Source of the DNA: Clostridium sp. AM33-3
GTDB lineage: Bacteria > Bacillota > Clostridia > Lachnospirales > Lachnospiraceae
Direction: 5' to 3'
NCBI RefSeq assembly: GCF_003480315.1
Contig: NZ_QUIV01000003.1
Coordinates: forward strand, 62,001-126,000
Length of the DNA: 64,000 nt
Made by a program: the position numbers and the translations under genes. Positions 29,752 through 45,004 of this stretch are shown here, in pieces; position 1 is the first letter of the stretch; the number at the start of each line of letters is the position of its first letter. A model generated the notes under the pieces. The model was not told the DNA's origin. It did not search any database and saw only the letters and a list, made by a program, of their open reading frames with translations.

Positions 29752-30753
29752 CTACAAATCTTCGTGCAGTTTTACATCGCTATTATCTGCCATGCATTGT
29801 TTTAAGGCAACAATCATTTTTTCCGCATCCAGCGGCTTTGCAAGATGAACATTCATTCCAGCCAGCCGGCTGTTGATAATGTCTTCTGCAAAGGCATTTG
29901 CGGACATTGCAATGATCGGAACCCTCTTGGCATCCCTTCTTTTCATTTCCCTGATTGTCCTTGCCGCATCCAGACCATTCATCCTCGGCATCATAATATC
30001 CATATAAATTACCCCAAAATAATCCGGTGCAGATTTCTCGAAGATTTCAACTGCTTCCTGCCCGTCTACTGCACATGTAACTTCCATACCGCTGTCTTCC
30101 AGTATACATCTGGAAATTTCCATGTTCAACTCATTGTCTTCCACAACCAATGCCCGCATGCCTTCTACCGAATAATCATCAAGGCTTACTGGCTTATCTG
30201 ATAAATTACTGTTTTTATCCTGTGTGCCAATTTTGAACGGAATTTTTACAATAACTGTTGTCCCGACACCTGCTTTGCTCTTCAGTTCAATACTTCCATC
30301 CATTTTGTCCACGAGTTGCTTCGTAATTGCAAGCCCCAGTCCGGTGCCTTCATACCTGGATCTGCTTGTCTCGCTTTCCTGAGCGAACATATCAAAAGCA
30401 TGTGCAATAAAATCTTCACTCATACCCACACCCTGGTCTTTACAGTAGAAAGTGAAATTTGCTCTGTCATCATCCAGAGTTTCTTCCTTAACCCCGACCG
30501 TGAGCACACTACCCGCCTGACTGAATTTTATGGCATTGTCCATAATATTCGACAGAATCCTTCCAAGATATACCGGGTTTCCAACCAGAGTGCTGTGACT
30601 GTATATACCATTTTTCCAGTCAATCTCATACCGGATGCCTTTCTTGGCAGCCCGCTCATCATAAATCTGGTTCAGTTCTCGCAGTACTTCTGTCAGATCA
30701 AAGGTTAGCTGCTGGTCCTTCAAATCTCCGCTCTGTAGTTTATTCATATCCAA
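29752..30753 (-). pseudogene. Hybrid histidine kinase, C-terminal part cut off by the mobile element
   Basis: The fragment starts inside HisKA: just upstream of the first start codon the frame reads LVNCT, then LDMNKLQSG, the usual end of the dimerisation helix. The ATPase domain (DNAIKFSQAG, CKDQGVGMS, GTGLGLAITKQL) and a complete receiver domain (LVVEDNELNMEIS, YMDIMMPRMNG) follow. Sensor, PAS and phosphorylated His are absent. The missing front part is probably the fragment on the other side of the element (37926-38129), but the segment between, some hundred codons of PAS and HisKA, is not found, so DNA was lost in addition to the insertion. Confidence 0.85.
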
Positions 30754-30810
30754 AGTACAGTTTACAAGGGACTACACAGAGTAGGTATCTGACGGGAGGG
30801 GTTCCGCCCG

Positions 30811-32322
30811 TCAGATTTTCCATGTGATATTCAAGCTGTCGCTTGTGGCGGCTATGGTGGTAATCATCAAATCCACCACCCGCCGCTTGTCGTCAAAGGA
30901 TACATTCTCCCAAGTGTCGAGGTAGCCGGAAATCTGGCTGACCTGTTCCGGGCTGATGGCTTCCACCGTCAGCTCTGCTATCCTCGCCAGAAGTTCCTGC
31001 TTGCGCCCGTCCAGTTCTGCTATCTTCACATTCACATAGGAGAGAAGGACATTGTTTGCGCCCGTCAGACTGTCCACCAGCTTTTCAATCTCGCCGTCCA
31101 CATGAGCAAGTTCCACTTGCAGGGCGGCGATTTTCGGGTTTGCCTTTGCCGCTTTCTTTCTGCCTGTCAGCGTCTTGTAGCTTGCCAGTTTCTTTACCAT
31201 CTGCTGATAAACAACCGCTTCCAGTTCCGAAGTAATGATTTTCCCGCACCCCGGACAACTCTTGTTATCCAGCCGTTTCGTACAGCGAAGGTATTGCTTG
31301 CCGGAGGGATTGAAGATGCTCATAAGGGCATACCCGCAATTCCCGCATTTGATTTTTCCCGCCAGCCATGTGTGGGTGGCTTTCCGGGCGGACTGGATTT
31401 TCATGTTGTTCATCAGCTTCTTGCGGCAGGTCAGCCAGATGTCAGAGGGGACGATACCCTCATGGGGAGCCAACACCAGCATTTGGTCTTTCAAGTCGTT
31501 CTTTTTGCTGGGCTTCACATCCCGCCCCTGATACAGATAGCAGCCGTTCATACCCGTAAAATCGGCAGCGTCATTGACAATGACTGTCCCTTGACTTTTG
31601 AAAAACTCGTACACATCAAGGTCTGCCTGCACATAGACAGGATTTCGTAACATCTGCGCCAGCGTGGGGCGTATCAGCTCTTTGCCGTTGAATAAAATCC
31701 CCTGTTCGGCAAAGTACCGGGTAATGTCCCCGTAGGAGGTAGTGGGCTGGGCGTACATCTCAAACATCAGCCGGATATTTGCCGCTTCGTCTGGATTTAC
31801 CACCAACTTTTTTGTGTTGATACCGTCCATCTTGATCGGCTCTGTATGGAAGCCGTAAGGGGCTTTCCCACCCATCTTGAAGCCCCGCTGACTGCGGGAA
31901 TAGTAAGCGTCCGTTACCCGCTTCTGTATGGTTTCCCTCTCAAGCTGGGCGAACACGATACAGATATTCAGCATCGCCCTCCCCATCGGGGTGGAGGTAT
32001 CAAACTTCTCCGTAGAGGACACAAACTCCACATTGTACTGCTGGAACAGCTCCATCATATTGGCAAAGTCCAGAATGGAACGGCTGATACGGTCGAGTTT
32101 GTAAACCACGACCTTTGCAATCAAGCCCCGCTTGATGTCCCGCACCAGTTCTTGAAACTTCGGACGGTCTGTGTTCTTGCCGCTGTACCCCTTGTCTGTG
32201 TATTCCTTGCAGTTACCGCCTTTCAACTCGTATTTGCAAAATTCAATCTGGCTTTCAATGGAAATGCTGTCCTTTTTGTCTACCGATTGCCTTGCATAGA
32301 TTGCGTCTATTCGATTGTTCAT
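30811..32322 (-). CDS. Large serine recombinase
   Basis: A 503-residue site-specific recombinase. The N-terminal catalytic domain starts IYARQSVDKKDSISIESQ, the first Ser (residue 13) being the expected nucleophile, and contains KVVVYKLDRISRSILDF and the helix LERETIQKRVTDAY. It is followed by the recombinase domain (GKAPYGFHTEP) and a zinc ribbon (CGNCGYALMSI, then RCTKRL and SCPGC at about residues 330-365), then a coiled coil. Such enzymes integrate and excise elements by themselves. The stop lies 34 bases from the left end of the element, the usual position. Confidence 0.95.
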   Translation of the reverse strand: MNNRIDAIYARQSVDKKDSISIESQIEFCKYELKGGNCKEYTDKGYSGKNTDRPKFQELVRDIKRGLIAKVVVYKLDRISRSILDFANMMELFQQYNVEFVSSTEKFDTSTPMGRAMLNICIVFAQLERETIQKRVTDAYYSRSQRGFKMGGKAPYGFHTEPIKMDGINTKKLVVNPDEAANIRLMFEMYAQPTTSYGDITRYFAEQGILFNGKELIRPTLAQMLRNPVYVQADLDVYEFFKSQGTVIVNDAADFTGMNGCYLYQGRDVKPSKKNDLKDQMLVLAPHEGIVPSDIWLTCRKKLMNNMKIQSARKATHTWLAGKIKCGNCGYALMSIFNPSGKQYLRCTKRLDNKSCPGCGKIITSELEAVVYQQMVKKLASYKTLTGRKKAAKANPKIAALQVELAHVDGEIEKLVDSLTGANNVLLSYVNVKIAELDGRKQELLARIAELTVEAISPEQVSQISGYLDTWENVSFDDKRRVVDLMITTIAATSDSLNITWKI

Positions 32323-32416
32323 ATTGTCGCTCCTTTTCTTAAAAAAGAAACGGAGCTGCTGACACCTTTATTATACCGTCAGCAGCCCCGCAAATCAACG
32401 ATGGCTTTGGAAAACC

Positions 32417-32608
32417 TTATGCCCCGGCTTCCTCACTCTGCCGTTTGTCGGCATACTTGCGGAACACCTCATAAAGCTGCTGTTCCAGCTCCCGGCGTTT
32501 TGCCGCTTCCTGCTCCGGCGTGAACACCGGGGAGAGATTTTCCAGCGTGATTTCCTTTCCCTGAAAAGTCACGACTTCGGTTTCTTTCTTGTATCTGATA
32601 TGCTCCAT
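32417..32608 (-). CDS. Small protein of the mobilizable element
   Basis: A 63-residue protein with start MEHIRYKKETEVV, chosen because ACGGAGGT lies in front. A beta-like start (VTFQGKEITLENLSPVF) is followed by a charged helix (AAKRRELEQQLYEVFRKYA). Similar small proteins accompany serine recombinases in Clostridia elements and may assist excision, but I cannot assign a function. It lies between recombinase and relaxase genes. Confidence 0.7.
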   Translation of the reverse strand: MEHIRYKKETEVVTFQGKEITLENLSPVFTPEQEAAKRRELEQQLYEVFRKYADKRQSEEAGA

Positions 32609-32678
32609 AGTACCTCCGTATTTAATTTTCAAAGTGCAGTGCCGTCATACCGCGGCGTGAAATGTTTTCTGTCATTGT

Positions 32679-33620
32679 TCACCGTTCCCTTGTGTGCCGC
32701 TGCTGCCGTTTCAGTTCCGCCAGTATATCCGGCGGGATACAGTCAACCAGCCGCTGTAAATCGTCCAGTTCGCTTTTCAGCTTTGCCCGTTCCATCGTAT
32801 CTTTCATCTTGCCTTTTTCGCTGGCTTTGGCTCTGGCTTCCAACTGTTCATTTTCCGCCAAAAGGTCGTTTATCGTGACCTTGTATTTTTTGAGCTGCCC
32901 GGAGAAGTTCTCTATCTGCGGAAACCACTTTTTCAGCAGGGAGAGGGCTTCCTCTTTCTTCTTTCCGGCATTGAACGGGGTAATACCGTCCAGCGAGGCT
33001 TCAATGGCTCTTGCCTGTTTGGAGAGATTGACCGCCTGCTTGAACAGACGGGTGGGGATATGCTTCCGGCCTGTTTTGCTGGCACTCTCCCCTCGCTCCA
33101 AAGCCGGGTACTTATCCACCATGTAGGCGTGAAAATCGTCCTGCCATTTTGTGAGGCTGGCTCTGTTCCCGATAATCTCCTTTGCACACAGGCGGTTGTC
33201 CTCTGTCAGCGGGACAAAGACCAAATGCAGGTGGGGCGTTTTCTCGTCCATGTGTACCACCGCCGACACGATATTTTCTTTCCCTACCCGCCCGATTAAG
33301 AAATCAGCCGCCCTCTGGAAAAATTCCTGTATCTCCTTTGGAGACTTCTTCTTAAAAAATTCCGGGCTGGCGGTAATCAGCGTATCCACAAACCGGGTGC
33401 TGTCCCTGCGGGTGCGGCATCCGGCTTGTTCAATGTGGCTCTGAATGAAATGGTAGTACCTGCCCTCCGGCTTGACGATATGGAAGTTGTATTTACTCCG
33501 GCTGGTGTCAATATCCGGGTTGCTGGCGTACTGTTCCTTTTGTCTTTCGTGATGGGCTTCCAGCGGTCTTGCCGGATTGCCCTTGTGTTTTTCAAATCGC
33601 AAAATTGCGTGTTGTGCCAT
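32679..33620 (-). CDS. MobV-family relaxase
   Basis: A 313-residue plasmid mobilisation protein (Mob/Pre type). The N-terminal stretch AILRFEKHKGN and the metal-binding motif VVHMDEKTPHLHLVFVPL at about residues 116-133 identify the MobV family, which nicks one strand at the transfer origin. The C-terminal third is a coiled coil (INDLLAENEQLEARAKASEK). Slightly short for the family, but the active region is complete. It lets the element be transferred by a conjugation apparatus in the same cell. The nick site is probably near 37750-37810 or upstream of this gene. Confidence 0.9.
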   Translation of the reverse strand: MAQHAILRFEKHKGNPARPLEAHHERQKEQYASNPDIDTSRSKYNFHIVKPEGRYYHFIQSHIEQAGCRTRRDSTRFVDTLITASPEFFKKKSPKEIQEFFQRAADFLIGRVGKENIVSAVVHMDEKTPHLHLVFVPLTEDNRLCAKEIIGNRASLTKWQDDFHAYMVDKYPALERGESASKTGRKHIPTRLFKQAVNLSKQARAIEASLDGITPFNAGKKKEEALSLLKKWFPQIENFSGQLKKYKVTINDLLAENEQLEARAKASEKGKMKDTMERAKLKSELDDLQRLVDCIPPDILAELKRQQRHTRER

Positions 33621-33805
33621 GAAACTCCTTTCCCCATTCCATCCCTTTCCGGGACTTTTCCACAGGAAAATCCCGCAGAAAATATCTCAGATAGGATAGG
33701 AATGGATAAGATATAAATAAAATCGTTTTAATCTCTGTATTTCTATCTTCCGTCCGGTTTTCGTACTTCAAGAGGATTGATTTTCGTACTTGTCAGGTAC
33801 GCTTT

Positions 33806-34201
33806 TCAGCCCTCCGGCGTACCAAAACGGGATTTCTTGAAGTCGGTGTTTGAAACCGCTTCATAGGATTTTGGGTAAATACAGTTGGGTTTTCCACAGC
33901 CCTGCTTCTTAATCTCAATCAACTCCGCATACTGCAATTCCCGCAGGGTGTTGACGGCTTTCTGCCGCCCACAGTGGAGCAGGGCGACCACCTCGCAGAT
34001 GGGATAATACAGGTAAATGCGCCCGTATTCGTCCGCCCAGCCGTTTTTCCGGGATAGTTCTGTCCGGCGCAGGATAAAGGCGTACAGTATCTTCGCTTCG
34101 TTGGACAGGGGCGTAAATGTAGGTGCTTCAAAGAGGAAATTCGGAAGCCGGGTGAAGCTGACCGATTTCTCCGGCTGATGAATATAAATCGTGTTTGTCA
34201 T
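33806..34201 (-). CDS. Replication initiator N-terminal-like protein (RepA_N type)
   Basis: A 131-residue protein with the RepA_N winged-helix layout: FTRLPNFLFEAPTFTPLSNE, then AKILYAFILRRTELS, and QKAVNTLRELQYAELI. Full RepA initiators are about twice as long; only the N-terminal domain is here. In mobilizable elements such short proteins are common and may help replication of the excised circle or act as DNA-binding regulators. No strong ribosome site is seen. Confidence 0.75.
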   Translation of the reverse strand: MTNTIYIHQPEKSVSFTRLPNFLFEAPTFTPLSNEAKILYAFILRRTELSRKNGWADEYGRIYLYYPICEVVALLHCGRQKAVNTLRELQYAELIEIKKQGCGKPNCIYPKSYEAVSNTDFKKSRFGTPEG

Positions 34202-34211
34202 AATGTGCTTT

Positions 34212-34324
34212 GTGGACAGTTAGAACGGCATTTCCGGGGGTGGACGATACTTTATACCACCTGCCCCGTTTTGGGGCTTGCAAAGCCTGATAAATCAAGG
34301 CTTTTTTCACTCCTAACTGTCCAC
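34212..34324. repeat. 12-base perfect inverted repeat between rep and Cys-rich genes
   Basis: GTGGACAGTTAG (34212-34223) and CTAACTGTCCAC (34313-34324). The right copy is the 3' end of the Cys-rich gene, the left copy lies before the Rep-like gene. Confidence 0.6.
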
Positions 34325-34726
34325 AGCAGACCTCCTTTTCCGTTCACTTTCTGTTTTCTGCCGCCTGTGAACTCTGGCGGCACAGCCGGGGCAGTATTTT
34401 GCCCGGTTGGATTTGGGGACGAACACTCTGCCGCAGACCGCACAGCGTTTCAAGTCTTTATCCCGGAAAATCTCCGCTTCCAGCGTCCCGTCCAGCGGCA
34501 AAACCGCCCAGCGGAACCACTTACAGCAGACCGAGAAAGAAACCGTCTGCGGGCAGGTGCAGGTGTCCCCATCGTCAAGGACAATGCAGTTGCCGTCCTC
34601 ACAGCAACAGCACTCCCGGCGGATCAGGGCGTTTGCCTGTTTCCTCTGTGCCGGTGTCATGCGGTAAAGGGAACTGTCCTGCTTGCGCTCTATGGGCGGC
34701 AGTCGTTTATATGGGTTCTCTCTCAT
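34313..34726 (-). CDS. Cysteine-rich VLP-type protein
   Basis: A 137-residue protein with two cysteine clusters: ECCCCEDGNC and CTCP with CCKWF at about residues 38-70, and a zinc ribbon KRCAVCGRVF and KYCPGCAARVHR at about 92-122. This arrangement, with the VLP residues in WAVLPLDG, matches the cysteine-rich VLP family found in Firmicutes mobile elements. The role is unknown; metal-dependent binding of DNA is likely. It is transcribed with the rep-like and relaxase genes. Confidence 0.8.
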   Translation of the reverse strand: MRENPYKRLPPIERKQDSSLYRMTPAQRKQANALIRRECCCCEDGNCIVLDDGDTCTCPQTVSFSVCCKWFRWAVLPLDGTLEAEIFRDKDLKRCAVCGRVFVPKSNRAKYCPGCAARVHRRQKTESERKRRSAVDS

Positions 34727-34822
34727 GTGTTTCCTCCATTTTGCTTTCCGTTGCCGCTCTCTCCGAAAAGGCTTCCTGCCCCATTTCTGCGGCGTGTTCC
34801 GGCGTTGGCACGCTCCCCACAG

Positions 34823-34869
34823 CTTCGGGACAAGTTGTCCCGAAGTGACCTCTGGACAAAGTGTCCAGA
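34823..34869. promoter_or_regulatory. Two neighbouring palindromes, possible operator or origin sites
   Basis: CTTCGGGACAAGTTGTCCCGAAG (arms CTTCGGGACAA and TTGTCCCGAAG) at 34823-34845, and TCTGGACA-AAG-TGTCCAGA at 34851-34869. A third one of the same kind, TTCGGGACA-TTT-TGTCCCGAA, lies at 37557-37577 beyond the cargo genes. Confidence 0.55.
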
Positions 34870-35030
34870 AGTTGGCTCCTTGCGGTGCTTCCCCTGCCGG
34901 GGTATTCCTTTTCGGACGGTCATTCGGTTTTCAAGGTGCGGCTCATCGATGAACTACCCTAAGTCTACACCTAAAAGACCGCCCGTCCCGTATATCCGAA
35001 AGGTAGGAAATCCGCCCAAAAAACTGCCTA

Positions 35031-35059
35031 TTTCCACGCTCTCGGAATTGTGGTAAAAT
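35031..35059 (+). promoter_or_regulatory. Promoter candidate of the cargo genes
   Basis: -35 TTTCCA (35031-35036) and -10 TAAAAT (35054-35059), 17 bases apart, about 50 bases before the first cargo gene. Confidence 0.45.
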
Positions 35060-35106
35060 GATAAGTACAAAGAGACAAATCGGCGTTTGGAAAGGGGGAA
35101 GCCTAT

Positions 35107-35553
35107 TTGATTGAGTTACAAACAGGAAAGATTACTTTCCCTGAACTGAATATAACAGTATCACCGTTATTGCATTATGCTGACTTTATTTCTGATTTTC
35201 CAAAAAATAAAATCACACAAATCAGAGATATGAGAAATGGATATATATGGTACGATATAAAAGAAAAAGTTTATGACAACAAAATCCCTGTTTATTTTTG
35301 CTTCAATCCACAGAAAAATCTTGAACTTGTTAATCTATATCCGCAGCACTTTGACTTAAATGCTATTCAGCATTGGGAATGCTGGACGCCCGAAGAAGCT
35401 CAGAAAGATAAAAGGTATTGTGATGAATGGCTCATGAGGTTTTGTGGTTTGAAGAACGAAGAAAACTTGTTTTCATGGGGTTCTATTTCATCTTACTTTG
35501 ACCCGCGCTCGTGCAGCAGTGGTATTTGTATTCATTACACAGAACAGAAATAA
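35107..35553 (+). CDS. Cargo protein of unknown function (immunity-like)
   Basis: A 148-residue protein with a TTG start after AAAGGGGGAA. It is AT-rich compared with its flanks. The C-terminal half shows the pattern of small toxin-neutralising proteins: LYPQHFDLNAIQHWECWTPE, KRYCDEWLMRFCG and the ending WGSISSYFDPRSCSSGICIHY. No signal peptide or membrane helix, so it acts in the cytoplasm. I do not recognise an exact family. It is followed by TTCCCATTTAT, a sequence that recurs after the other cargo genes. Confidence 0.65.
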   Translation: MIELQTGKITFPELNITVSPLLHYADFISDFPKNKITQIRDMRNGYIWYDIKEKVYDNKIPVYFCFNPQKNLELVNLYPQHFDLNAIQHWECWTPEEAQKDKRYCDEWLMRFCGLKNEENLFSWGSISSYFDPRSCSSGICIHYTEQK

Positions 35554-35608
35554 ATTAAAACATGAGAAAACAGCTATTCCCATTTATTGGGCAGACAGGG
35601 GGGAGAGC

Positions 35609-36409
35609 ATGGAACTATCCATACAGGAACGCCTAAAAGACCTGCGTGTGGAGCGTGGGCTGACGCTGGAACAGCTTGCGGAGGAAACTCACCTTTCCAA
35701 ATCTGCTTTAGGCAGTTATGAGGGAGACAATCTCAAAGACATCAGCCACCATGCCCTTATCCAGCTGGCGAAGTTTTACGACGTGACCGTTGATTACCTG
35801 CTGGGACGCTCTAAAACAAAAAATCACCCAAACGCCGATCTTGCAGACCTGCGCTTGAGTGATGATATGATTGAACTATTGAAAAGTGGGCGGGTGGATA
35901 CTTCCCTCTTGTGTGAGCTGGCGGTACACCCGGATTTCCCCCGGCTAATGGCTGACCTTGAAATCTATGTGAACGGAACGGCAGTCAAGCAGGTACAGAG
36001 CGCAAATGCCATTGTGGATATTATGAGCGCAACCATTATGAAGCAGCACAATCCCGGCTTGTCCGACCCGCAGTTAAGGCAGCTTGTCGCCGCCCATATT
36101 GACGATGACAGCTTTTGCCGCTATGTGATACAGCAAGACATAAACAAGATAGCCCTTGACCTGCGGGAAGCCCATAAGGACGATTTTTTCAGCGTTCCGG
36201 AGGACAATCCGCTGGAAGATTTCTTGCAGACCGCCGAGGAAACTGCCAGTCCAGACAGCGACCCGGAGCAAGCGGCTTTGGCGTTTATCTGTAAGCGGCT
36301 CAAGCTGAATTTGAAAAAGCTGTCCGAGGAAGAAAAGAAGTGGCTGAAAAAGATTGCACAGAAGTCGGACTTGCTGAAAAATCCAAACCCGCAGCGGGGG
36401 AGAAAATGA
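35609..36409 (+). CDS. XRE-family helix-turn-helix regulator
   Basis: A 266-residue DNA-binding protein, start MELSIQERLKDLRVERG after GGGGGGAGAGC. The helix-turn-helix covers about residues 4-66: LTLEQLAEETHLSKSALGSYE, then LIQLAKFYDVTVDYLLG. The rest (about 190 residues) is a helical domain typical of regulators in Firmicutes elements (LLKSGRVDTSLLCELAVHPDF). The last 15 codons (KSDLLKNPNPQRGRK and stop) are repeated at about 36986-37031, between two cargo genes. It probably controls the element or its cargo; the palindromes may be its sites. Confidence 0.88.
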   Translation: MELSIQERLKDLRVERGLTLEQLAEETHLSKSALGSYEGDNLKDISHHALIQLAKFYDVTVDYLLGRSKTKNHPNADLADLRLSDDMIELLKSGRVDTSLLCELAVHPDFPRLMADLEIYVNGTAVKQVQSANAIVDIMSATIMKQHNPGLSDPQLRQLVAAHIDDDSFCRYVIQQDINKIALDLREAHKDDFFSVPEDNPLEDFLQTAEETASPDSDPEQAALAFICKRLKLNLKKLSEEEKKWLKKIAQKSDLLKNPNPQRGRK

Positions 36410-36450
36410 AAAAATTAACAAATCGAAAATTTGAAAGGAGTACAAAGATA

Positions 36451-36804
36451 ATGAAAATTACAAAAGAATTTGAAAAAGAAATTGCACCGTTTTTCTGGGT
36501 TGAGCATGAAGAAAGTGCTTCTGTCTGCCTAAATGTGGGAGAGTATCTACAAGAGATTTTTAATACTCGTGAAGATGAAGGTTTTGAAGGAAACGGTTAT
36601 GATTGGGGGAGTTTAGCGCAAGTGTTTTTGGACGAACAGTGTTCAAATTTGCAAGGGAAAATAGGCTTTGACCCAGAGGGCAGTATGTTCTGTGTATATT
36701 CAAAAGATAAAAATGCGTTGGCAGAATTTATTCTTCGTTTCAAAAAAGCCTGTGAGGATAAGCCGTTTATTTTAGACTTATTTAGTCGGGCTGAATTAGA
36801 CTAA
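36451..36804 (+). CDS. Immunity protein 51-like protein
   Basis: A 117-residue protein starting MKITKEFEKEIAPFFWVEH; AAGGAG lies ten bases before the start. The central motif FEGNGYDWGSLAQVFLDEQ and the following IGFDPEGSMFCVYS are typical of the Imm51 family, which neutralises a secreted toxin of polymorphic type. No cognate toxin is present, so it is an orphan immunity gene. Very AT-rich. It lies right after the XRE gene, and a repeated sequence follows it. Confidence 0.75.
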   Translation: MKITKEFEKEIAPFFWVEHEESASVCLNVGEYLQEIFNTREDEGFEGNGYDWGSLAQVFLDEQCSNLQGKIGFDPEGSMFCVYSKDKNALAEFILRFKKACEDKPFILDLFSRAELD

Positions 36805-36817
36805 AATTCAATCCGAC

Positions 36818-37031
36818 AGCTTCCCATTTATCGGAGAGATAGCAAAGCCAGCCGAGCCAGTCAACGGTCAAGATGAACGGCGCATTTCATGCGCCGCCGT
36901 TGACAGTCCCGCCCGTCTTTGCTAATGGGCAATCAAGGCGGGAAAGCCCTAAAATGGCTTCCCGCCCATTTCTAAGAACTGATAAGTCAGATTTGCTGAA
37001 AAATCCAAATCCACAGCGGGGACGGAAGTAG
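36818..37031. repeat. Cassette-junction sequence with duplicated XRE 3' end and nested hairpin
   Basis: From left: TTCCCATTTATCGGAGAGAT, AGCAAAGCC, an insert with a nested hairpin (GTCAACGG/CCGTTGAC outer, CGGCGCAT/ATGCGCCG inner, 36860-36904), then GCCCTAAAATGGCTTCCCGC and, at about 36986-37031, a copy of the last codons of the XRE gene encoding KSDLLKNPNPQRGRK and a stop. After the next cargo gene (37456-37506) the same outer pieces recur without the hairpin insert. Confidence 0.75.
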
Positions 37032-37066
37032 AGAACAATAAATAAGAATTTACAGGAGGAAAATCA

Positions 37067-37453
37067 ATGGAGAACTTGATTAAGTTTTTAGAAGATAAGA
37101 TAACGGATAAAATGTCTGTGGAAGAAATAGTTGATGTTTTTGAGCAGATGTGCAGCACACCGCTTGAAGAAGATATGGTTTTATTTGAAACCGGAACATT
37201 TACTGCTTTTTCAAAAGAACCATTTTTTCAAATTTCATTAGTTCGACAGTTTTCAAATGATGATGAAGAGTTTTATCAAATCCATGTAGTCATCTTGTAT
37301 AAGCCAACCGCTGAAAATAAAATTTTCAGCGAAACAACATGGGACGAAGATTTAGACGAAAATATATTTGACTATATCAGAAAATCAGCGTCGTTTGCTT
37401 ATGCAAGAAATCATGAATACATCGAGGTAAAAATATATATGGACGAAACTTAA
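37067..37453 (+). CDS. Cargo protein of unknown function (possible immunity gene)
   Basis: A 128-residue protein, start after AGGAGG and seven bases. AT-rich. N-terminal helix (MENLIKFLEDKITDKMSVEE), then a beta-rich part (FFQISLVRQFSNDDEEFYQIHV, LYKPTAENKIF) and an acidic C-terminus. No signal or membrane segment. Size, composition and its place in the cassette series suggest a toxin-neutralising protein, but I do not recognise the family. Confidence 0.65.
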   Translation: MENLIKFLEDKITDKMSVEEIVDVFEQMCSTPLEEDMVLFETGTFTAFSKEPFFQISLVRQFSNDDEEFYQIHVVILYKPTAENKIFSETTWDEDLDENIFDYIRKSASFAYARNHEYIEVKIYMDET

Positions 37454-37925
37454 CTTCTCATTTATCAGGGAGATAGCAAAGCCCTAAAATGGCTTCCCCG
37501 CCCATTCCAATTTTGAGAGAAAAATCTGTTTGCTTTTTTGTGAGTGTGTCCACAAGTTCGGGACATTTTGTCCCGAAGTCCGGCGTGGGACGAGGAACGG
37601 GGGCTTTCATATACGCCCTGTCTGCTGACGAAACCAGCCCTGCGCTTGCGGCTCCACGACACGCAATCACAGCCCTGTTTTCCTGCTGCTTCAAATGCCC
37701 TTGCCCGACCCGGCGGCAACCTCATTTTCGCAGCAACGCCGACAGAGCGTATAACACACTACACTTTGCAAGCAAAGTCGTGTGCCAAGGGGCAAGCCCC
37801 TTTGGAAACCCCGGACAACAAAACAGTCTGAATATCTCGCACTTTTTCGGTGCTTGATACTCAGCCTTTATTTGTTGTCAGCAGCCCCCGTTTCGTGGTC
37901 TGCGTGTAGTTCCTTGTAAACTGAC
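37454..37925. other. Gene-free right arm of the element with oriT-like hairpins
   Basis: No gene. It has the junction repeat (37456-37506), the palindrome TTCGGGACATTTTGTCCCGAA (37557-37577) and two neighbouring hairpins with AA loops: ACTTTGC/GCAAAGT (37763-37778) and GGGGC/GCCCC (37789-37800). The pair resembles a transfer origin for the MobV relaxase. The right end repeat follows. Confidence 0.5.
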
Positions 37926-38129
37926 CTAATAGACAGCCGTAAAATCTGCACATATCTTATCCAAAAGCCGTCTTTCCGCCATCTGTTCTTCCAGCGTACT
38001 TTTCAGTTTTCTGTTCCTCATATGTACCATTACAGTCAGGATAAGAAGCAGAACGATCAGCACGGTTATAAAAACCAAAACAGTCACAGACTGCGGTTGC
38101 TTCGGAAATATATATTTAGTTTCTGTCAT
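37926..38129 (-). pseudogene. Histidine kinase N-terminal fragment cut by the mobile element
   Basis: A 67-residue fragment starting MTETKYIFPKQPQSV (GAGAGGG in front), with one membrane helix (VLVFITVLIVLLLILTVMVH) and the family linker TLEEQMAERRLLDKICADF. The frame ends at TAG; the following codons (VSLQGT) still resemble the kinase PAS region, so the stop is a mutation or the result of the junction. The C-terminal part of a similar kinase lies on the other side of the element (29752-30753). Confidence 0.8.
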
Positions 38130-38184
38130 AACAAAACCCTCTCTATGCTTCCTATCTGCTTTTCCCATGCATCCAGAAAGGCAA

Positions 38185-41100
38185 TTACAGCCAGTTTTCC
38201 AGAACATCATTCAGCTTATTCATATCCAGCGGTTTCGCGATATGTCCATTCATGCCTGTATTTTTGGCCAGCTGTACATCTTCTGCAAAAGCATTGGCAG
38301 TCATGGCAACAATAGGCAGTTTTCCCTTTTCACCCGGAAGGCTCCTGATTGCTGCAGTTGCCTCATAACCATTCATGACAGGCATTTGGATATCCATAAA
38401 AACAAGATCATACAATCCTTCCGGAGAAGCTTCCACTTTTTCAACTGCGATTTCCCCATTTTCTGCTGTTTCCACTTCTGCCCCTGTCATCTGCAAAATT
38501 TCAACAGCAATTTCTCTGTTCAACTCATTATCCTCAACCAGCAGAATCCTTTTTCCTGTATAGTCTGATTCTGACAACTTCTCCAGATAATTTCTTGCTG
38601 TTTTTTCTTTTCTGCCTGAAGTAAACTGCCGTAGTGTTGCCGTCAGCCGGGAACGAAACAGCGGTTTTGCAATAAAAGCATCTACACCTGCAGCCTTTGC
38701 TTCTTCTTCAATTTCGCTGAATTCATAGGATGTCAATACAATGATGGTGATCTCTTTTCCTATCCGTTTCCGGATCTGTCTGGCAGTCTCTATACCATCC
38801 ATATCCGGCATCTTCCAGTCTAAAATAACAGCAAAGTAATCATCTTTCAACTCATGCCGTGCATAACAGCGCTCAACCGCTTCCCTGCCAGAGAGAACCC
38901 ATTCACCCATAATACCGATTTCCTTCAGTGTGGCAACTGTACTTTCACAACATGTCTTATCATCATCCACAACCAGAACCGGCAAATTCATCAGATTTTT
39001 GTCCTGTTCTTTTTCTTTTTCCTGAAGCTCCAGATAAATTGTTACCGTAATTCTGGTTCCCTTATGTAAGGTACTGTCCACTTTAATATTACCATTCATC
39101 AGGTTCACAATATTTCTGCTGATTGCCATTCCAAGACCGGTTCCCTGAACTCTGGTTGTCCGGTGGTCATCCGCGCGGCTAAAAGGATCAAACATGATTT
39201 TCTGGAATTCCGGTGACATACCGATTCCATTATCCTCAATCGTAAATTCATAGCATCCAAGTTCTGAAAATCCATTGGGTTTTTCCTCTATCGAAAAAGT
39301 AATATTTCCACCATCCGGTGTATACTTGATCGCATTACTCATCAGATTCACAAATACCTGCTGAATCCTCAAGCTGTCACCACAGACAGCCTCATGTTCA
39401 ATATGATTGATGTGTATATCAAAATTATGTTTATGTTCATCAAGCACCGGTTTCGTAAGTGTAATAAGATTATCTACCAGCTCTGACAGATTGAAATCTT
39501 CCTGTGTCAGTGTCATTTTTCCACTTTCAATACGTGCCATATCCAATACTTCATTGATCAGCCCAAGCAGATGGCGGCTTGATTCTGTGATCTTGCCGAG
39601 GCATTCAATGACTCTGTCCTGGCTCTCAACATTTGCTCCTGCGATTGCCGTCAGACCCACAATCGCATTCATTGGTGTCCGGATATCATGGGACATATTG
39701 GAAAGGAATTCTGTTTTCGCACGATTTGCATTTTCTGCGGACCGGTAAGCCTCTTTCAGTGCCTGACGAGATTCAATCTCTGCTTTCTTCTCCTGTGTCA
39801 CATCCATGGATGCCAGCAGTACCTTTTCCAGCTTTCCATTCTTCCATTCCAAGGGAATATAAGAAGCTATTTTATAAGTCTTTTCATCCAGGCTGCAATA
39901 CTCAAACTTATAAATATCATTTTCACTTTTCAGTTTTTTCCGAATATTATCCGGGGCTATCAGGATATCTATAGCTTCCAATGGTTCCAGTGTCTTATAT
40001 TTTTCAAGAACCTGCATCTGAAAATCATGATAAAATCCCAGAGGTTTATATATCATCTGTCCATTCAGATTGTAGAATTCATATCTGTCATTTTCCAGAT
40101 CACAGACAACAAAGCGGTCAACCAGACGCACAATACTCTGAATCAGCTGCTCCATGGAAGCATTATCCGCTGCCATCTGCAGATGCCGTGCGCTCTCTAC
40201 CTTTGCCTCTGTGATATCACGCAGAAAGATCATGGCATATTCTGAATCCTCTATTTCGCCACGTATGACCACATTGCGGACCCATCGTTCTTCTCCATTC
40301 AGAGTGATACGGCACTCTAAAGCCAATTCGGTTTCCAGACCCTTCAGCCTTTCTGCAATATAACCACGGTCGTAAAAAGAGGATACCGCCTTCTTATCTG
40401 TCTCCACAACATAGGAATCCACAAAATGCTGAATCAATTCATCCCACGTATAACTCTGTTCAAAGACGGTCATCAGGGACGGTTCAACCTTAAAGGTATC
40501 AAAAGTATTCGCTTCCAGATTCACATAATACTCGCACAGATCTGCTTTCGTAAAAGCCCGGTGGAAAGCAGCAGATTTTTGTGCCTGCATGATTTCTTTT
40601 TTCTCCGCATTAATGTTAATAAAAATCCCGGCAATTCTGCTGGCAGAACCATCCAGACGGCGTATTACTTCTGCCGATGCCCGAAACCACTGGTATTGAT
40701 TATCCTTCATTCTCATACGATACTCTACCTGGTATTTTATCTGGTTCGTCTTATCCTTAATTGCCGCCTGAAGCTGCACCATCACTCTTTCTTTATCCTG
40801 TGGATGCAGAAGCTCTGACCAGGATTCCAGTTTATTCGGAAAGTCCAGAGTGTCATGATAGCCAAGCATTTTTCGGAATTCATGACTCCAGTTTGCATTC
40901 ACAATCTCACTGTTTTCGTCACAGTCAAAATACCAGAAGCCGGAATAGATAGCCTCATTGAGCAGTGTCAAATTTACATGATCCCAGTTGACCTGTACGG
41001 ACATAACCCAGATCTGTCTGCCCGCCTCATCTATCGCATCCTCTTTACAAAGCCGTACATTATTCACTGTACCGTCTGCTGTAAGGATCTGTGCTTCCCC

Positions 41101-41391
41101 TGTTCCATGAAGCCGCAAAAAACGGTCTCGCTCCAGTGTATCTTCCTCGTCATAAAAGAAGTTTCTCAATGAGCCTTTTGTCTGTTCCATGAAAGTATCG
41201 AATGTATATCCTGTACTATGCAACAGCAGATTATCCACAGACAAAATAGACAGGTTTTGGTCATAAGATCCTGTCATTATACCTACCCCGCCATTATTTT
41301 CCAGTGTTTTCTGTACGGCCTGTGACATGGCCTGTGTCTGCCCCGTTACAGTCTCACCTAAGGAATATATTTTGTCTTCATAATTTTTCAT
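38185..41391 (-). CDS. Cytoplasmic PAS-containing hybrid sensor histidine kinase with two receiver domains
   Basis: A 1068-residue kinase without a membrane helix. There are several PAS-like domains, the clearest at about 145-270 (GFWYFDCDENSEIVNANW, FININAEKKE) and 275-400 (MIFLRDITEAKVE), and a further one at about 410-540. HisKA has the His at about 568 (SNMSHDIRTPMN). ATPase motifs are DNGIGMS and GTGLGMAISRN. Two receivers follow, with LVVDDDKTCCES and ILDWKMPDMDG, then LLVEDNELNREIA and FMDIQMPVMNG. Same build as the kinase at the other end of the chain. It is the first gene of the chain and stops about 55 bases before the split kinase. Confidence 0.93.
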   Translation of the reverse strand: MKNYEDKIYSLGETVTGQTQAMSQAVQKTLENNGGVGIMTGSYDQNLSILSVDNLLLHSTGYTFDTFMEQTKGSLRNFFYDEEDTLERDRFLRLHGTGEAQILTADGTVNNVRLCKEDAIDEAGRQIWVMSVQVNWDHVNLTLLNEAIYSGFWYFDCDENSEIVNANWSHEFRKMLGYHDTLDFPNKLESWSELLHPQDKERVMVQLQAAIKDKTNQIKYQVEYRMRMKDNQYQWFRASAEVIRRLDGSASRIAGIFININAEKKEIMQAQKSAAFHRAFTKADLCEYYVNLEANTFDTFKVEPSLMTVFEQSYTWDELIQHFVDSYVVETDKKAVSSFYDRGYIAERLKGLETELALECRITLNGEERWVRNVVIRGEIEDSEYAMIFLRDITEAKVESARHLQMAADNASMEQLIQSIVRLVDRFVVCDLENDRYEFYNLNGQMIYKPLGFYHDFQMQVLEKYKTLEPLEAIDILIAPDNIRKKLKSENDIYKFEYCSLDEKTYKIASYIPLEWKNGKLEKVLLASMDVTQEKKAEIESRQALKEAYRSAENANRAKTEFLSNMSHDIRTPMNAIVGLTAIAGANVESQDRVIECLGKITESSRHLLGLINEVLDMARIESGKMTLTQEDFNLSELVDNLITLTKPVLDEHKHNFDIHINHIEHEAVCGDSLRIQQVFVNLMSNAIKYTPDGGNITFSIEEKPNGFSELGCYEFTIEDNGIGMSPEFQKIMFDPFSRADDHRTTRVQGTGLGMAISRNIVNLMNGNIKVDSTLHKGTRITVTIYLELQEKEKEQDKNLMNLPVLVVDDDKTCCESTVATLKEIGIMGEWVLSGREAVERCYARHELKDDYFAVILDWKMPDMDGIETARQIRKRIGKEITIIVLTSYEFSEIEEEAKAAGVDAFIAKPLFRSRLTATLRQFTSGRKEKTARNYLEKLSESDYTGKRILLVEDNELNREIAVEILQMTGAEVETAENGEIAVEKVEASPEGLYDLVFMDIQMPVMNGYEATAAIRSLPGEKGKLPIVAMTANAFAEDVQLAKNTGMNGHIAKPLDMNKLNDVLENWL

Positions 41392-41869
41392 TTTATAAAA
41401 ATCCTCTCTCCGTCTTATACCTTCTTCATCTTGCTTTTATCTGTATACAGAAAACCTGTCCCTGCTAGTTTTGTTACCCATTTTTGCATATAAAAAGGAC
41501 ACTTGCCAAAATCTGCCAGTGTCCCTACTACATTTTTTTAAAATCACACATCTATATAGTATAAAAGGTATCGGAATCTCTTCTGTTCAAACATCTTTTC
41601 CATATACTATGATGATATGGAAACAGTGGCAACCGGCTGACATGGTCAAGCTTTCTGACTTTAGTCCCTTCTGGCTTTGCGCCCCTGCCTTTCAACAGGT
41701 TTGCCTTTAAAATAATCTCTTTCTTCAAAAGACCATACCACGCGGTTTTCCACACGTCAATAATTTTTTTTTTAAATCTACACATATTTTACTTCTGTTT
41801 TTGAACTTCTCTTTATAAAAAATCTAAATCGATGAATCCTAAAAACCTAACATTTTTTTCATATGAAGC
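41392..41869. other. Intergenic region upstream of the kinase chain
   Basis: No convincing gene. A terminator-like hairpin is at 41497-41524. The remainder is AT-rich at 41780-41860 and may hold the kinase promoter, but no good box pair was seen. Confidence 0.5.
41497..41524 (-). terminator. Terminator-like hairpin upstream of the kinase chain
   Basis: GGACACT (41497-41503) pairs with AGTGTCC (41518-41524). On the minus strand it is followed by TTTTTATATGC; it would stop transcription coming from the RhuM remnant. Confidence 0.65.
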
Positions 41870-42436
41870 TCATTCATCATTAGCAACCGTAACATCACTT
41901 TTCTTAATCTTTCCTTCCGGTGCATCTGCCCAGGTGGTTAATCCCATATGCTCTTTTGTGTGATCAGCTCTTTCCACGATCAGTTCAGCCGCCGTATGTC
42001 CATGAACTGCGTAATGCATTTTATTCTGAACAGTCGCATAGAATCTTCTCGTCGTTGCAGAATTTTTATCATAATCAACAGCCGTAGCATACAGGTCAGT
42101 GATCTTCTGATAGAACTTTCTTTCGCTGGCACGAATCTCACGGATGCGCTCTAACTGCTCATCGAAATACTTCTCCGTCAGATACGTTCCACGCTTCAGC
42201 CGTTCATCATCCATGACCCAGCCTTTGATGGTATAGTCCTTTGCGATCTGGTTTACCCATTTACGAAACTGTACAGCACGCTCAGAATTGACCTTGAAGC
42301 CTACGGCAATGGTCATTTGAAGGCTATAGTGTTTGGTATCGCGTGTGACCTGACGAGAACCTTCAGTTTGAACTATCCGGAAATTCCGGATAGTTGAATC
42401 TTCCTCAAGCTCTGAATCAGAATAAATCTTCTTGAT
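41870..42436 (-). pseudogene. RhuM-family protein, truncated at the N-terminus
   Basis: The frame encodes the C-terminal half of a RhuM (virulence RhuM/Fic-associated) protein: FRIVQTEGSRQVTRDTKHYS, then MTIAVGFKVNSERAVQFRKW, YTIKGWVMDDERL and a C-terminal MHYAVHGHTAAELIVERADH. The conserved sequence continues upstream of the first ATG to about 42436 and then stops abruptly where the recombinase remnant on the other strand begins. So the gene lost its 5' end by a rearrangement. RhuM genes are frequent in horizontally acquired regions; function not established. Confidence 0.85.
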
Positions 42437-42439
42437 CCC

Positions 42440-42744
42440 TTACCAATGCTGCTAAGAAAGCCGGGCTTGATCTTCTCCATTCTGGTGCCAAGTGCATGAT
42501 GCTAAACAGGCATTACCTCGGAGATGACTTCTACCCGTCCATCATTGATCCGGCATCCTTCGATGCCGTCAGTGCGGAGCTTAGCAAGCGCTCTACGCAG
42601 CTCGGACGGAACGACCGCTATATTGCACCAATCATAAAAAGGCCACCTACCGCCTTTCAATTTGGTGATATTACAGAAAGTTATGAAAATCCGGTCAGGC
42701 AAGCAGAATACCTATACAGCCTGATAGAAAGCGAGGTCAAATAA
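42440..42744 (+). pseudogene. 5'-truncated recombinase-associated protein
   Basis: The frame, open from the junction at 42440, reads LDLLHSGAKCMMLNRHYLGD and ends YENPVRQAEYLYSLIESEVK. This is the C-terminal part of a small protein that commonly precedes serine recombinase genes in Clostridia transposons. Its beginning is missing. Confidence 0.75.
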
Positions 42745-43544
42745 TGGGAAATGTTATGGTCATCCCTGCAAAACGGCAGGTCGGAAACACTGCCAGACAG
42801 CAAGATGCAAAGCCAAAGCTTAGAGTCGCGGCGTATTGCAGAGTCAGTACTGACAGCGATGAGCAGGCTACAAGCTACGATGCTCAGGTTGAGCATTACA
42901 CAGAATTTATACAAAAAACCCAGAATGGCCAGGTACAGGTAAATCACAATCACTTCCTCGGCTACACCAAGGATGCAGATGGTAATCTCATCATCGATCC
43001 AGAGCAAGCGGAGGTGGTAAAGCGCATCTACCGTGAATACCTGGAGGGCTACTCGATGGACCGGATTGCAAAAGGTCTGGAAGCAGACGGCATCCTCACC
43101 GGCGCTGGCAAAACAAAATGGTGGACCAGCACCATCAACACGCTCCTTGGCGATAAGTCCACCTACCAGGCGAAGCTCCAGCAGAACAGCGCAAAGGTGA
43201 TCCGAAGCGCTCAGCAAAATACCGCTGATGGCATTGACGAAAGACTGCAGGAGCTCCAGAAAGAACTTCTCAAAAAGGCCAATAACAAAGAGGCCTACGA
43301 CGAGATTGCCGACGAGATCTTCAAACTCCGGGAACAGCGCGAAAAGTGCACGGTTGATACCGCGGCCAGGGACGCACAGATTGCTCGCATCAATGAACTG
43401 CAGGACTTCATCAAGCAGCAACCCGCACACCTGGAAGCCTTCGATGAGGCCCTGGTAAAGCGCTGGCTTGAGCGGATCATTGTCTGGGAGGATCACTTCA
43501 CAGTGGAGCTTAAGTCCGGACTGAAAATTGATATTGAAGGATAA
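42744..43544 (+). pseudogene. Serine recombinase with internal deletions
   Basis: The 266-residue product starts like an intact recombinase (VAAYCRVSTDSDEQATSYDA with the nucleophilic Ser) but jumps after QKTQN to GYTKDADGNLIIDPEQAEVV, in the recombinase domain; most of the catalytic domain is lost. A second jump at STYQAKLQQ removes the zinc ribbon. The end (ERIIVWEDHFTVELKSGLKI) is normal. Usual length is over 500 residues, so it is inactive. The reading frame stays open, which suggests in-frame deletions. Confidence 0.85.
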
Positions 43545-43615
43545 TCCCGTAGACGCGCGAAACCCTCTCGACCATGATGGCCGGGAGGGTATTTTCTATA
43601 TCTACAAACTGGAAG

Positions 43616-44065
43616 TTATAAACATCTTTGCAAATATATCATATCTATCAACTGTACACCGCCCTCATAAATTGGGTGGTCATAATTGTCAGTAAAGAAA
43701 TTGGGAATCTTGTGAGAACGAACAAATCCACATTTTTCATAAAATGGTATTGTCAATGGACTGTCACCTGTTCCAACTTGCAAAACAGAATATTCATCTG
43801 CATATTTACTGGCAAGAAAATCAATTAGTGCTTTGCCATAGCCCTTTCCCTGATTTTCCGGATCGACTGCGATATTTTTGATTTCAAGTATTCCATTACC
43901 TTCATCGGTAACAACACATTCTGCTTTTTCATCATTGTCTTCAAGCACATACATAGTACCTTTTTCAAGATAGCGCTCAACCATGCTCTCCTGTTCATCA
44001 GCTAATAACAATAATGATATAAATTGCTTTTTATTTTCGTTCACTTCTCGGATTTTCATATCCAT
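43616..44065 (-). CDS. GNAT-family N-acetyltransferase
   Basis: A 149-residue acetyltransferase. The acetyl-CoA-binding signature is AVDPENQGKGYGKALIDFL at about residues 70-88, with the beta bulge strand GILEIKNIAVDP before it and PFYEKCGFVRSH near the end. Substrate unknown. It follows the peptidase E gene by 26 bases and is AT-rich, so the pair may have come in together. Confidence 0.9.
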   Translation of the reverse strand: MDMKIREVNENKKQFISLLLLADEQESMVERYLEKGTMYVLEDNDEKAECVVTDEGNGILEIKNIAVDPENQGKGYGKALIDFLASKYADEYSVLQVGTGDSPLTIPFYEKCGFVRSHKIPNFFTDNYDHPIYEGGVQLIDMIYLQRCL

Positions 44066-44091
44066 TACTCCGTCAAATTGGAATTTTCAAA

Positions 44092-44697
44092 TTAGTCTTT
44101 GCAAATAACATTTGAACCTTCACCATCAATTACAATTCCCTGACGGTTGTTAATCGGGCATAGATTCAAATCCGAAAACTCAGTCATTATTTTCTCGGTA
44201 ACTTTCTTAAATGGTGCTGTAAGATAATGCGGAAGAACATAGAAATCAATCAAATCAAGCCCTGCATCATCTTCTTGTGAGTAGTCCTCTGGCTTTTCAT
44301 CCATTTGCTCGATATATTGGATGCTTGGAGCGCATATAATTGCGCCTGCCGACTCGCCGATCATCAATTTTCCATTTGCCAATTCCTTTTTCAGTAGCCC
44401 ATCAGTTCCCGTTTTACGGAGCTGGTCCATAAGAAAGAAAGAATTTCCGCCGGTAAAATATATCACATCTGCTTCTTCAAAAACAGACTGTATCGTTGAA
44501 TAAGCCTCCGTTGAAATATCAATTTCAGTTACGATTGCTCCCAACTTTTTGAATAATTTTCGAGCCGAGCCGACATAACCGGTGTAGCCTTCACGCAGTG
44601 AAGCTGTTGGAATAAATGCGACTTTCTTATTTTCAATTTCTTCCTTTATCAGACTTCCCACACTTGAAAAGTGCGAACATAAAAATAGCTTCATCAA
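44092..44697 (-). CDS. Peptidase E-like (S51) protein
   Basis: A 201-residue class I glutamine amidotransferase-like peptidase. The nucleophile elbow is MIGESAGAIICAP (Ser about 115), preceded by IYFTGGNSFFLMDQL, the usual S51 landmarks. Known members cut Asp-X dipeptides; many Firmicutes homologues are untested. It starts MMKLFLCSHFSS. The acetyltransferase gene follows closely. Confidence 0.88.
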   Translation of the reverse strand: MMKLFLCSHFSSVGSLIKEEIENKKVAFIPTASLREGYTGYVGSARKLFKKLGAIVTEIDISTEAYSTIQSVFEEADVIYFTGGNSFFLMDQLRKTGTDGLLKKELANGKLMIGESAGAIICAPSIQYIEQMDEKPEDYSQEDDAGLDLIDFYVLPHYLTAPFKKVTEKIMTEFSDLNLCPINNRQGIVIDGEGSNVICKD

Positions 44698-45004
44698 TAT
44701 TCTCCTTTATAAATTTCGATTTACTGAATTTTCCCTTCACATCTATACCACTGCCTGCAACCACCCAAAATGGTCGAGTTGCCGGATTGGTTGTCAGCCC
44801 TTTCCGTTTTCCAAAAATCAGCCCGAAATGCCTGACATCTAATCCACTGTCTCAAATCGCGACATCTAATCCGAGGTCACAACCTGACACAGATTTCGCG
44901 TTAGATATGTTTCCATATAAGAAAACCAAGCTTTTTCAGAAGTCTGGCTTCAAATCCAAACCTCCGAAAAAGCCCGGAAATACGCCGCTTTCTGGCACTT
45001 GATT
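44698..45004. other. Intergenic region with a direct repeat, perhaps an IS end
   Basis: No gene. GACATCTAATCC occurs twice (44834-44845 and 44861-44872), 27 bases apart, in a sequence like the ends of some insertion sequences. This would fit the other remnants just to the left, but no transposase is left. Confidence 0.4.

Follow-up and report, generated by a model that had tools for sequence, protein, structure and literature searches.

Candidate mobile gene cassettes with inverted-repeat ends in a mobilizable element of Clostridium sp. AM33-3

We investigated a 64,000-nucleotide (nt) stretch of Clostridium sp. AM33-3 (contig NZ_QUIV01000003.1, positions 62,001 to 126,000; henceforth the window, whose own numbering is used throughout). 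It contains an integrative mobilizable element in which variable cargo genes sit on both sides of a gene for an XRE-family regulator. Much of this cargo probably consists of mobile gene cassettes, each bounded by a left end and an imperfect inverted-repeat right end. More tentatively, these cassettes may belong to an undescribed system of gut Firmicutes, in which some recombinase would transfer single promoterless genes with inverted 18–22-bp ends from slot to slot, the slots being located on chromosomes, in tandem chromosomal arrays or on mobilizable elements. This would be a counterpart of integrons without the integron integrase, and it is a proposal that could well prove wrong.

Results

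The initial annotation of the region proposed an array of orphan immunity genes, added or exchanged at the 3' end of the XRE gene by recombination between repeats. The repeats it named were all present at the genes concerned, namely a copy of the XRE tail, variants of TTCCCATTTAT, and the strings AGCAAAGCC and CCCTAAAATGGCTTCC. The TTCCCATTTAT variants form a 22-nt family at 35577, 36821 and 37455 (the latter two 82% and 77% identical to the first), and AGCAAAGCC (36841 and 37475) and CCCTAAAATGGCTTCC (36947 and 37482) follow the second and third genes. Together with the gene leaders at 35073, 36416 and 37036, the TTCCCATTTAT copies turned out to be the two ends of one inverted-repeat motif. 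Judged from sequence, TTCCCATTTAT is the right end of the putative cassette and CGAYAAATCGGAATTTG the left, each an imperfect inverted repeat of the other. The cargo sites of the window are made up as follows, the cassette ends being candidates throughout.

35051..35059 (+), -10-like element TGGTAAAAT immediately 5' of site A (7/8 positions, p 0.02 by shuffling)
35073..35090 (+), left cassette end of site A (matrix score 11.4, weak)
35107..35553 (+), site A cargo gene of 148 amino acids (aa), without Pfam match at E<=0.001
35572..35589 (-), right cassette end of site A, CTATTCCCATTTATTG (matrix score 13.1)
36416..36433 (+), left cassette end of site B (matrix score 13.6)
36451..36804 (+), Imm51-family cargo gene of site B (PF15595, E 1.4e-31)
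36816..36833 (-), right cassette end of site B, TTCCCATTTATCG (matrix score 16.4)
36834..36975 (+), conserved block with inverted repeats, 3' of site B (comparison of 80 loci)
36984..37031 (+), copy of the XRE 3' end, apparently brought in with the third gene (same in loci L030 and L038)
37036..37053 (+), left cassette end of the third gene (matrix score 15.4)
37067..37453 (+), third cargo gene, 128 aa, without Pfam match at E<=0.001
37450..37467 (-), right cassette end of the third gene, TTCTCATTTATCA (matrix score 16.1)
37468..37506 (+), shortened block in which the stretch between two AAAGCC copies is lost (comparison with relatives)

The profile match upheld the earlier identification of the Imm51 gene. 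Not all cargo lies 3' of the XRE gene as had been thought, since the first gene (35107–35553) is upstream of it (35609–36409), at a different site. Site B of the window holds two units: the Imm51 gene with the full block and then, after the XRE-tail copy, the 128-aa gene with the shortened block. The XRE tail (36362–36409) is repeated at 36984–37031, the first 38 nt being 89% identical. A search with the third gene gave 559 homologues (E<=0.001), and among the 120 matches listed none bears an informative name. Its product was modelled by AlphaFold with a predicted local distance difference test (pLDDT) score of 93.9, yet a fold comparison with the PDB yielded nothing at E<=0.001 (best E 0.44).

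The motif was derived from an alignment of 70 non-redundant cassettes out of 145 at sites A and B (35 from site A, 35 from site B or B2). Its left-end consensus, GARCGAYAAATCGGAATTTG, adjoins the ribosome-binding site, and the complement of the right end reads TCTSCCCGATAAATTGGAATTTAT. At a joint matrix score >=14, 275 kb of element sequence gave 106 matches with 30 inward and 4 outward pairs. By comparison, 889 kb of flanks contained 14 matches with 1 inward pair, and one Markov shuffle gave 4 matches, none of them paired. Six matches at this score fall in the window, three within the element (36816, 37036 and 37450) and three in a second array outside it (43602, 44071 and 44709). As the matrix was trained on element cassettes, only the second array (43602–44726) is an independent find. 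Both site A ends (11.4 and 13.1) and the left end of site B (13.6) score within or barely above the range of scattered matches (up to 13.1). The second array comprises the following features.

43602..43619 (+), right end of the array (matrix score 15.4)
43616..44065 (-), GNAT cargo gene (Pfam scan)
44071..44088 (+), site between both genes (matrix score 14.1)
44092..44697 (-), peptidase S51 cargo gene (PF03575; known in six contexts)
44709..44726 (-), left end of the array (matrix score 16.2)

A serine recombinase fragment with the Recombinase domain only (42744–43544, +) directly adjoins this array. A 73% nucleotide homologue of the GNAT gene is the site A cargo of L002 and L014. The S51 cassette was found in six contexts (the window, L083, L120, L121, L122 and L188), among which the bodies between the ends are 94.5–99.2% identical. 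Over 400 nt of 5' flank no pairwise match at E<=0.01 was found among the six, and over 400 nt of 3' flank the sole similarity was between L083 and L121, in two stretches of 26 and 27 nt. One cargo gene is common to L051 (site A) and L069 (site B), at 97.8% identity over 276 nt; its homology ends on the right within the motif and on the left at the ribosome-binding site.

Pairs of ends were also sought across genomes. In eight element-carrying genomes, a 16-bp motif with <=2 mismatches gave 198 matches, some of them the element's own, versus 65 for a reversed control. Orientation was evaluated in the six of these genomes with all matches listed (150 matches). Ten pairs lay 150–1600 bp apart; nine were inward-facing, including site A of the element itself, one was tandem and there was no outward pair, and none of 20000 strand permutations reached nine inward pairs. 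The right-end form with <=1 mismatch was matched 72 times in 50 of 299 genomes of the phylum, versus 22 times for the control, with 16 of the 72 supplied by two genomes with repeats, G071 and G302. The G071 repeats (L123–L126, four loci read) resemble miniature inverted-repeat transposable elements (MITEs) and carry a similar 16-mer at their ends in opposite polarity; the ends of the G302 repeats (L127–L131) also contain a similar 16-mer. The stretches retrieved around pairs mostly hold one small gene, oriented from left end to right end. A -10-like element 5' of the left end matched a mean of 6.8 of 8 positions, versus 5.3 after shuffling, in a non-random and partly non-independent sample of 20 slots (p<=0.1 in 14 of the 20).

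Slots were occupied by different genes in related genomes. At one orthologous slot, with flanks 92% and 88% identical, a 117-aa gene is present in G005 (L085) and a 176-aa gene in G022 (L174), and the flank homology stops, on one side, within the right end. At another locus the S51 gene is carried by G005 and a frame of ~50 aa by G021, behind the same promoter-like sequence and with a different flank on the opposite side; this slot is missing in four more genomes of the genus. G008 and G342 contain a repeated carrier with different inserts. A tandem array in G480 consists of three complete left–right units and two more left ends. Its spacers are 79–97% alike where alignable and contain the promoter-like GGTATAATGA, and its ends lengthen to CTGCCCGAYAAATCGG in part of the units. 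G573, a congener of G480, shares the flanking genes and shows a single left end, before a lipoprotein-like gene matching the last gene of the G480 array. By eye, no recombinase was seen among the open reading frames near this array (about 742–759 kb), on which no profile search was made. At 1966–3437 of L082, a motif-bounded 188-aa gene adjoins an opposite-strand 268-aa XRE-like gene, perhaps marking a second element type with such slots.

Relatives of the window element were collected by a scan with the XRE protein, which gave 180; the best 80 of these were kept, and counts of relatives refer to them. The expectation that cargo is exchangeable held across the 80 copies, in which a conserved backbone is combined with genes that differ on both sides of the XRE gene, upstream at site A and downstream at site B. 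Site A is flanked by the promoter region (34901–35065) on the left and by the leader of the XRE gene on the right, site B by the XRE stop and the block at 36834–36975. This block was matched in 79 of 80 loci (all except L055; some matches partial), and L036 and L039 have it solely in its short form. In some copies an additional gene precedes the tail (site C); it lies between block and tail and is streptomycin adenylyltransferase-like in 21 of 80 loci (L002, L006 and others), a single one of these genes having been scanned. Site A is empty, with both ends missing, in at least five loci. The site A gene of the window has 99% identical copies in L008 and L030. No nucleotide match to its Imm51 gene was found across the 80 loci, and the cluster of this gene has one member.

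Identity between loci was mosaic. The window, L030 and L038 have an identical (100%) third gene and preceding 94-nt tail-plus-leader, and the third gene is 96% identical in L048. From the first block to the element end, L038 is 99.6% identical to the window; its first site B gene is different and its XRE gene only 90% identical. L001 and L038 have a site B gene in common, around which near-identity starts in the last ~40–100 nt of the XRE gene and stops with the block; outside site B, identity is ~83–97% in the XRE gene before and 92% in the tail after. Near-identity extends from the XRE stop to the block in L008/L073, up to the XRE start (site A) in L035/L048, and through site A into the XRE gene in the window/L008 pair. 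Identity breaks fall within or at the edges of the XRE gene, block or tail. Recurring in several locus pairs, this mosaic identity shows that elements swap cargo slots by homologous recombination in their shared backbone. The XRE-tail copy of the window, at 89% identity to the window's XRE gene over 38 nt, is probably derived from another element and is likely a footprint of such recombination. L069 retains a longer XRE remnant (293–345 nt), and L035 has part of the element (site A, XRE gene, site B and block) in tandem duplicate with different cargo. The first proposal, exchange at the XRE 3' end, agrees with the mosaic identity and is incomplete: the element has no fewer than two cargo sites, and certain copies have a third. 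The repeats are of two kinds: the XRE-tail and block copies are backbone transported by homologous recombination, and TTCCCATTTAT appears to be a cassette end that occurs outside the element too.

The cargo was scanned as one protein each from 70 of 87 clusters. The 17 clusters left unscanned comprise mostly a large L034 insertion, transposase-like frames (by eye), and short or reverse-strand frames. Immunity families were matched by 4 of the 70 (Imm51, Imm68 and two SMI1/KNR4, or SUKH-1, which is an immunity superfamily). Another 42 matched other families, some of them below the curated cut-off, including GNATs, methyladenine glycosylase, phosphorylase, the metallo-beta-lactamase fold, deaminase, glyoxalase, MFS, ABC transporter, VanZ, CAAX protease and DUFs. 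The cargo is thus of many kinds, immunity genes being one of them, and the proposed array of orphan immunity genes was not borne out, with a single immunity-family match among the three genes of the window. The remaining 24 clusters had no Pfam match at E<=0.001; some of these could be immunity proteins.

The element itself has the following limits and backbone genes.

About 30752..37929 (no strand assigned), integrative mobilizable element carrying the cargo sites (ends placed where homology with relatives ceases)
30811..32322 (-), large serine recombinase (PF00239, PF07508, PF13408)
32679..33620 (-), MobV relaxase (NF041497, 169.5 bits; cut-off 100)
33806..34201 (-), RepA_N protein (PF06970)
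34313..34726 (-), Cys_rich_VLP protein (PF14194)
35609..36409 (+), XRE-family regulator with cargo site A upstream and site B downstream (PF12844)

Of the 79 loci with a match, 39 lost homology on the right at 37929–37931; on the left, homology stopped at 30752 in 17 of 33 matches. A second common right stop at 37823, ~100 nt short of the common end, was seen in 21 of the 79 loci and is perhaps a second form of the element end. Assignment as an integrative and mobilizable element follows from its own recombinase, a serine recombinase by Pfam profiles, and from a relaxase (MobV) without conjugation machinery. No transfer-channel gene was seen by eye among the open reading frames of 30752–37929, nine of which were covered by profile scans. 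A candidate origin of transfer lies at 37752..37762 (-), where the complement reads GTAGTGTGTTA and resembles the nick region of the MobV family. A palindrome, TTCGGGACA/TGTCCCGAA, occurs twice in the element (34817–34846 and 37550–37579; copies 87% alike). The XRE protein was modelled by AlphaFold with a pLDDT of 53 and a predicted template modelling score of 0.32. Insertion into a histidine kinase gene was considered and is not claimed, as the flanking pieces (29752–30753, -, and 37926–38210, -) do not read as one gene. An Rfam scan of 30000–45000 gave nothing at the cassettes; its sole match was a c-di-GMP-I riboswitch (41625–41715, -; RF01051, 74.1 bits) upstream of a long kinase-like frame (38185–41391).

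Discussion

We propose that a cassette usually comprises one gene with its ribosome-binding site, apparently without a promoter of its own, between CGAYAAATCGGAATTTG and the inverted-repeat right end. Cassettes would occupy expression slots, mostly just 3' of a -10-like element or within an operon, so that an arriving gene should be expressed at once; two such slots appear to flank the XRE gene of the mobilizable element. Two processes are envisaged. In one, which the mosaic identity shows, slots are exchanged between elements via backbone homology, sometimes unequally, such that XRE-tail and block copies remain. In the other, for which the support comes from sequence comparison, cassettes would travel between unrelated slots with homology confined between the ends. 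The ends would be recognised, and the cassettes moved, by a recombinase or transposase that probably acts in trans. The element's own serine recombinase may be the mover.

Several observations weigh against this proposal. No excision, circle or transposition event was observed, and consistent target-site duplication was not established in flanks inspected by eye. The motif is short and degenerate, reaching p<=0.01 versus shuffles in 34 of 88 left and 49 of 94 right ends, a test that is weak alone because the consensus was drawn from the same sequences. The matrix count within elements is circular for the same reason, the matrix coming from the same cassettes, and includes the four outward pairs. 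Several site A and B cargos have no recognisable left or right end, and in five loci of one lineage site B holds a reverse-strand efflux gene with no left end seen. Among the S51 contexts, the match of L120 and L121 to L083 extends 21–22 nt beyond the left end, and L122 has a degenerate right end. Between L083 and L115, only the promoter side is orthologous beside the cassette. The flank homology of L085 and L174 enters the cassette ~20 nt past the left end, and of 35 genomes from the genus, G005 alone yielded the L085 cassette.

The strongest competing explanation, although rather unlikely in our estimate, is that these are mobile insertion cassettes, in which the transposase of an insertion sequence located elsewhere cuts at the ends, these being terminal inverted repeats. 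Inverted-repeat ends of 18–22 bp with no transposase seen between them by eye would fit, as would the MITE-like G071 repeats with a similar 16-mer, were it not that the motif polarity is reversed in those four loci. This explanation also sits poorly with the orientation of the gene from left to right end, mostly behind a -10-like element, and with the reuse of slots by different genes. Moreover, neither an autonomous partner in the loci examined nor consistent target duplications by eye could be established.

We consider it improbable that ordinary homologous recombination between related elements or repeats moves the cargo by itself, with the motifs as passengers in exchanged tracts. The mosaic identity, the XRE-tail footprint, the longer XRE remnant of L069, the partial element tandem of L035 and the similarity of the G480 spacers (79–97% where alignable), which could let them recombine, are all accommodated by it. 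It does not readily account for an S51 gene in six contexts with almost dissimilar flanks, a gene common to sites A and B, or inward-facing pairs across genomes.

Somewhat less probable still is that the ends are operators or RNA elements of expressed genes rather than recombination sites. Their location in 5' and 3' untranslated parts suits such a role, as does a near-palindromic left end that adjoins the XRE gene in the window element; ends were, however, also found at places with no XRE gene noticed nearby. Homology around the same gene is restricted to the stretch between the ends, and the cassettes have no Rfam match. An RNA stem joining both ends was rejected, as a cassette's own left and right ends lacked covariation (p 0.81 for 40 element cassettes and p 0.34 for 12 stand-alone pairs). 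A recombinase-linked acquired-immunity cluster, despite the Imm51, Imm68 and two SUKH-1 clusters, is very improbable with 4 of 70 scanned clusters matching immunity families and 42 matching others.

The proposed cassettes resemble several known systems in part. Like integron cassettes, they would be single genes without their own promoter that use a resident promoter, fixed slots and tandem arrays and have broad cargo. Compared by description, they differ in having short inverted repeats on both sides, whereas integrons have one attC per cassette. No integron integrase scored above the TIGR02249 cut-off in eight genomes; weak matches occurred in 8 of 8, and likewise in 14 of 14 control genomes. 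The cassette genes lie between inversely oriented sites, a layout that they share with the Xer/dif modules of Acinetobacter, in which genes bounded by short sites are reshuffled within plasmids and chromosomes. Four end strings were 10–13/28 identical to the 28-bp dif site of Bacillus subtilis, from which the hosts' dif may differ (p 0.37–0.93 versus shuffles), and this candidate was set aside. Mobile insertion cassettes similarly combine a passenger gene and terminal inverted repeats with no transposase; unlike them, the present cassettes reuse promoter-linked slots, and the loci examined yielded no parent insertion sequence. The acquired interbacterial defence clusters of Bacteroidales also bring together toxin-less immunity genes, a mobile element and a recombinase. 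In contrast, cargo of the window element is mostly non-immunity, its relatives are mostly labelled as Firmicutes, and its serine recombinase belongs to the element as a whole. IME_Rho_tet, too, is mobilizable, occurs in gut Bacillota and encodes a serine recombinase, but the cargo described for it is tetracycline-resistance genes, and its authors suggest evolution via homologous recombination (PMC12904643). In the titles and abstract openings of the literature searched, we found no account of such inverted-end cassettes.

Conclusions

Integron-type cassettes account for much gene shuffling in Proteobacteria, and we know of no comparable cassette system generally recognised in gut Firmicutes. 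If the cassettes described here move by site-directed recombination, they would provide a route that spreads acetyltransferases, immunity proteins, efflux pumps and many unknown genes among gut bacteria. Genes spread in this way would arrive with a promoter in place ahead of them. With the motif, the cassettes can be searched for, and the enzyme that would move them becomes a defined target.

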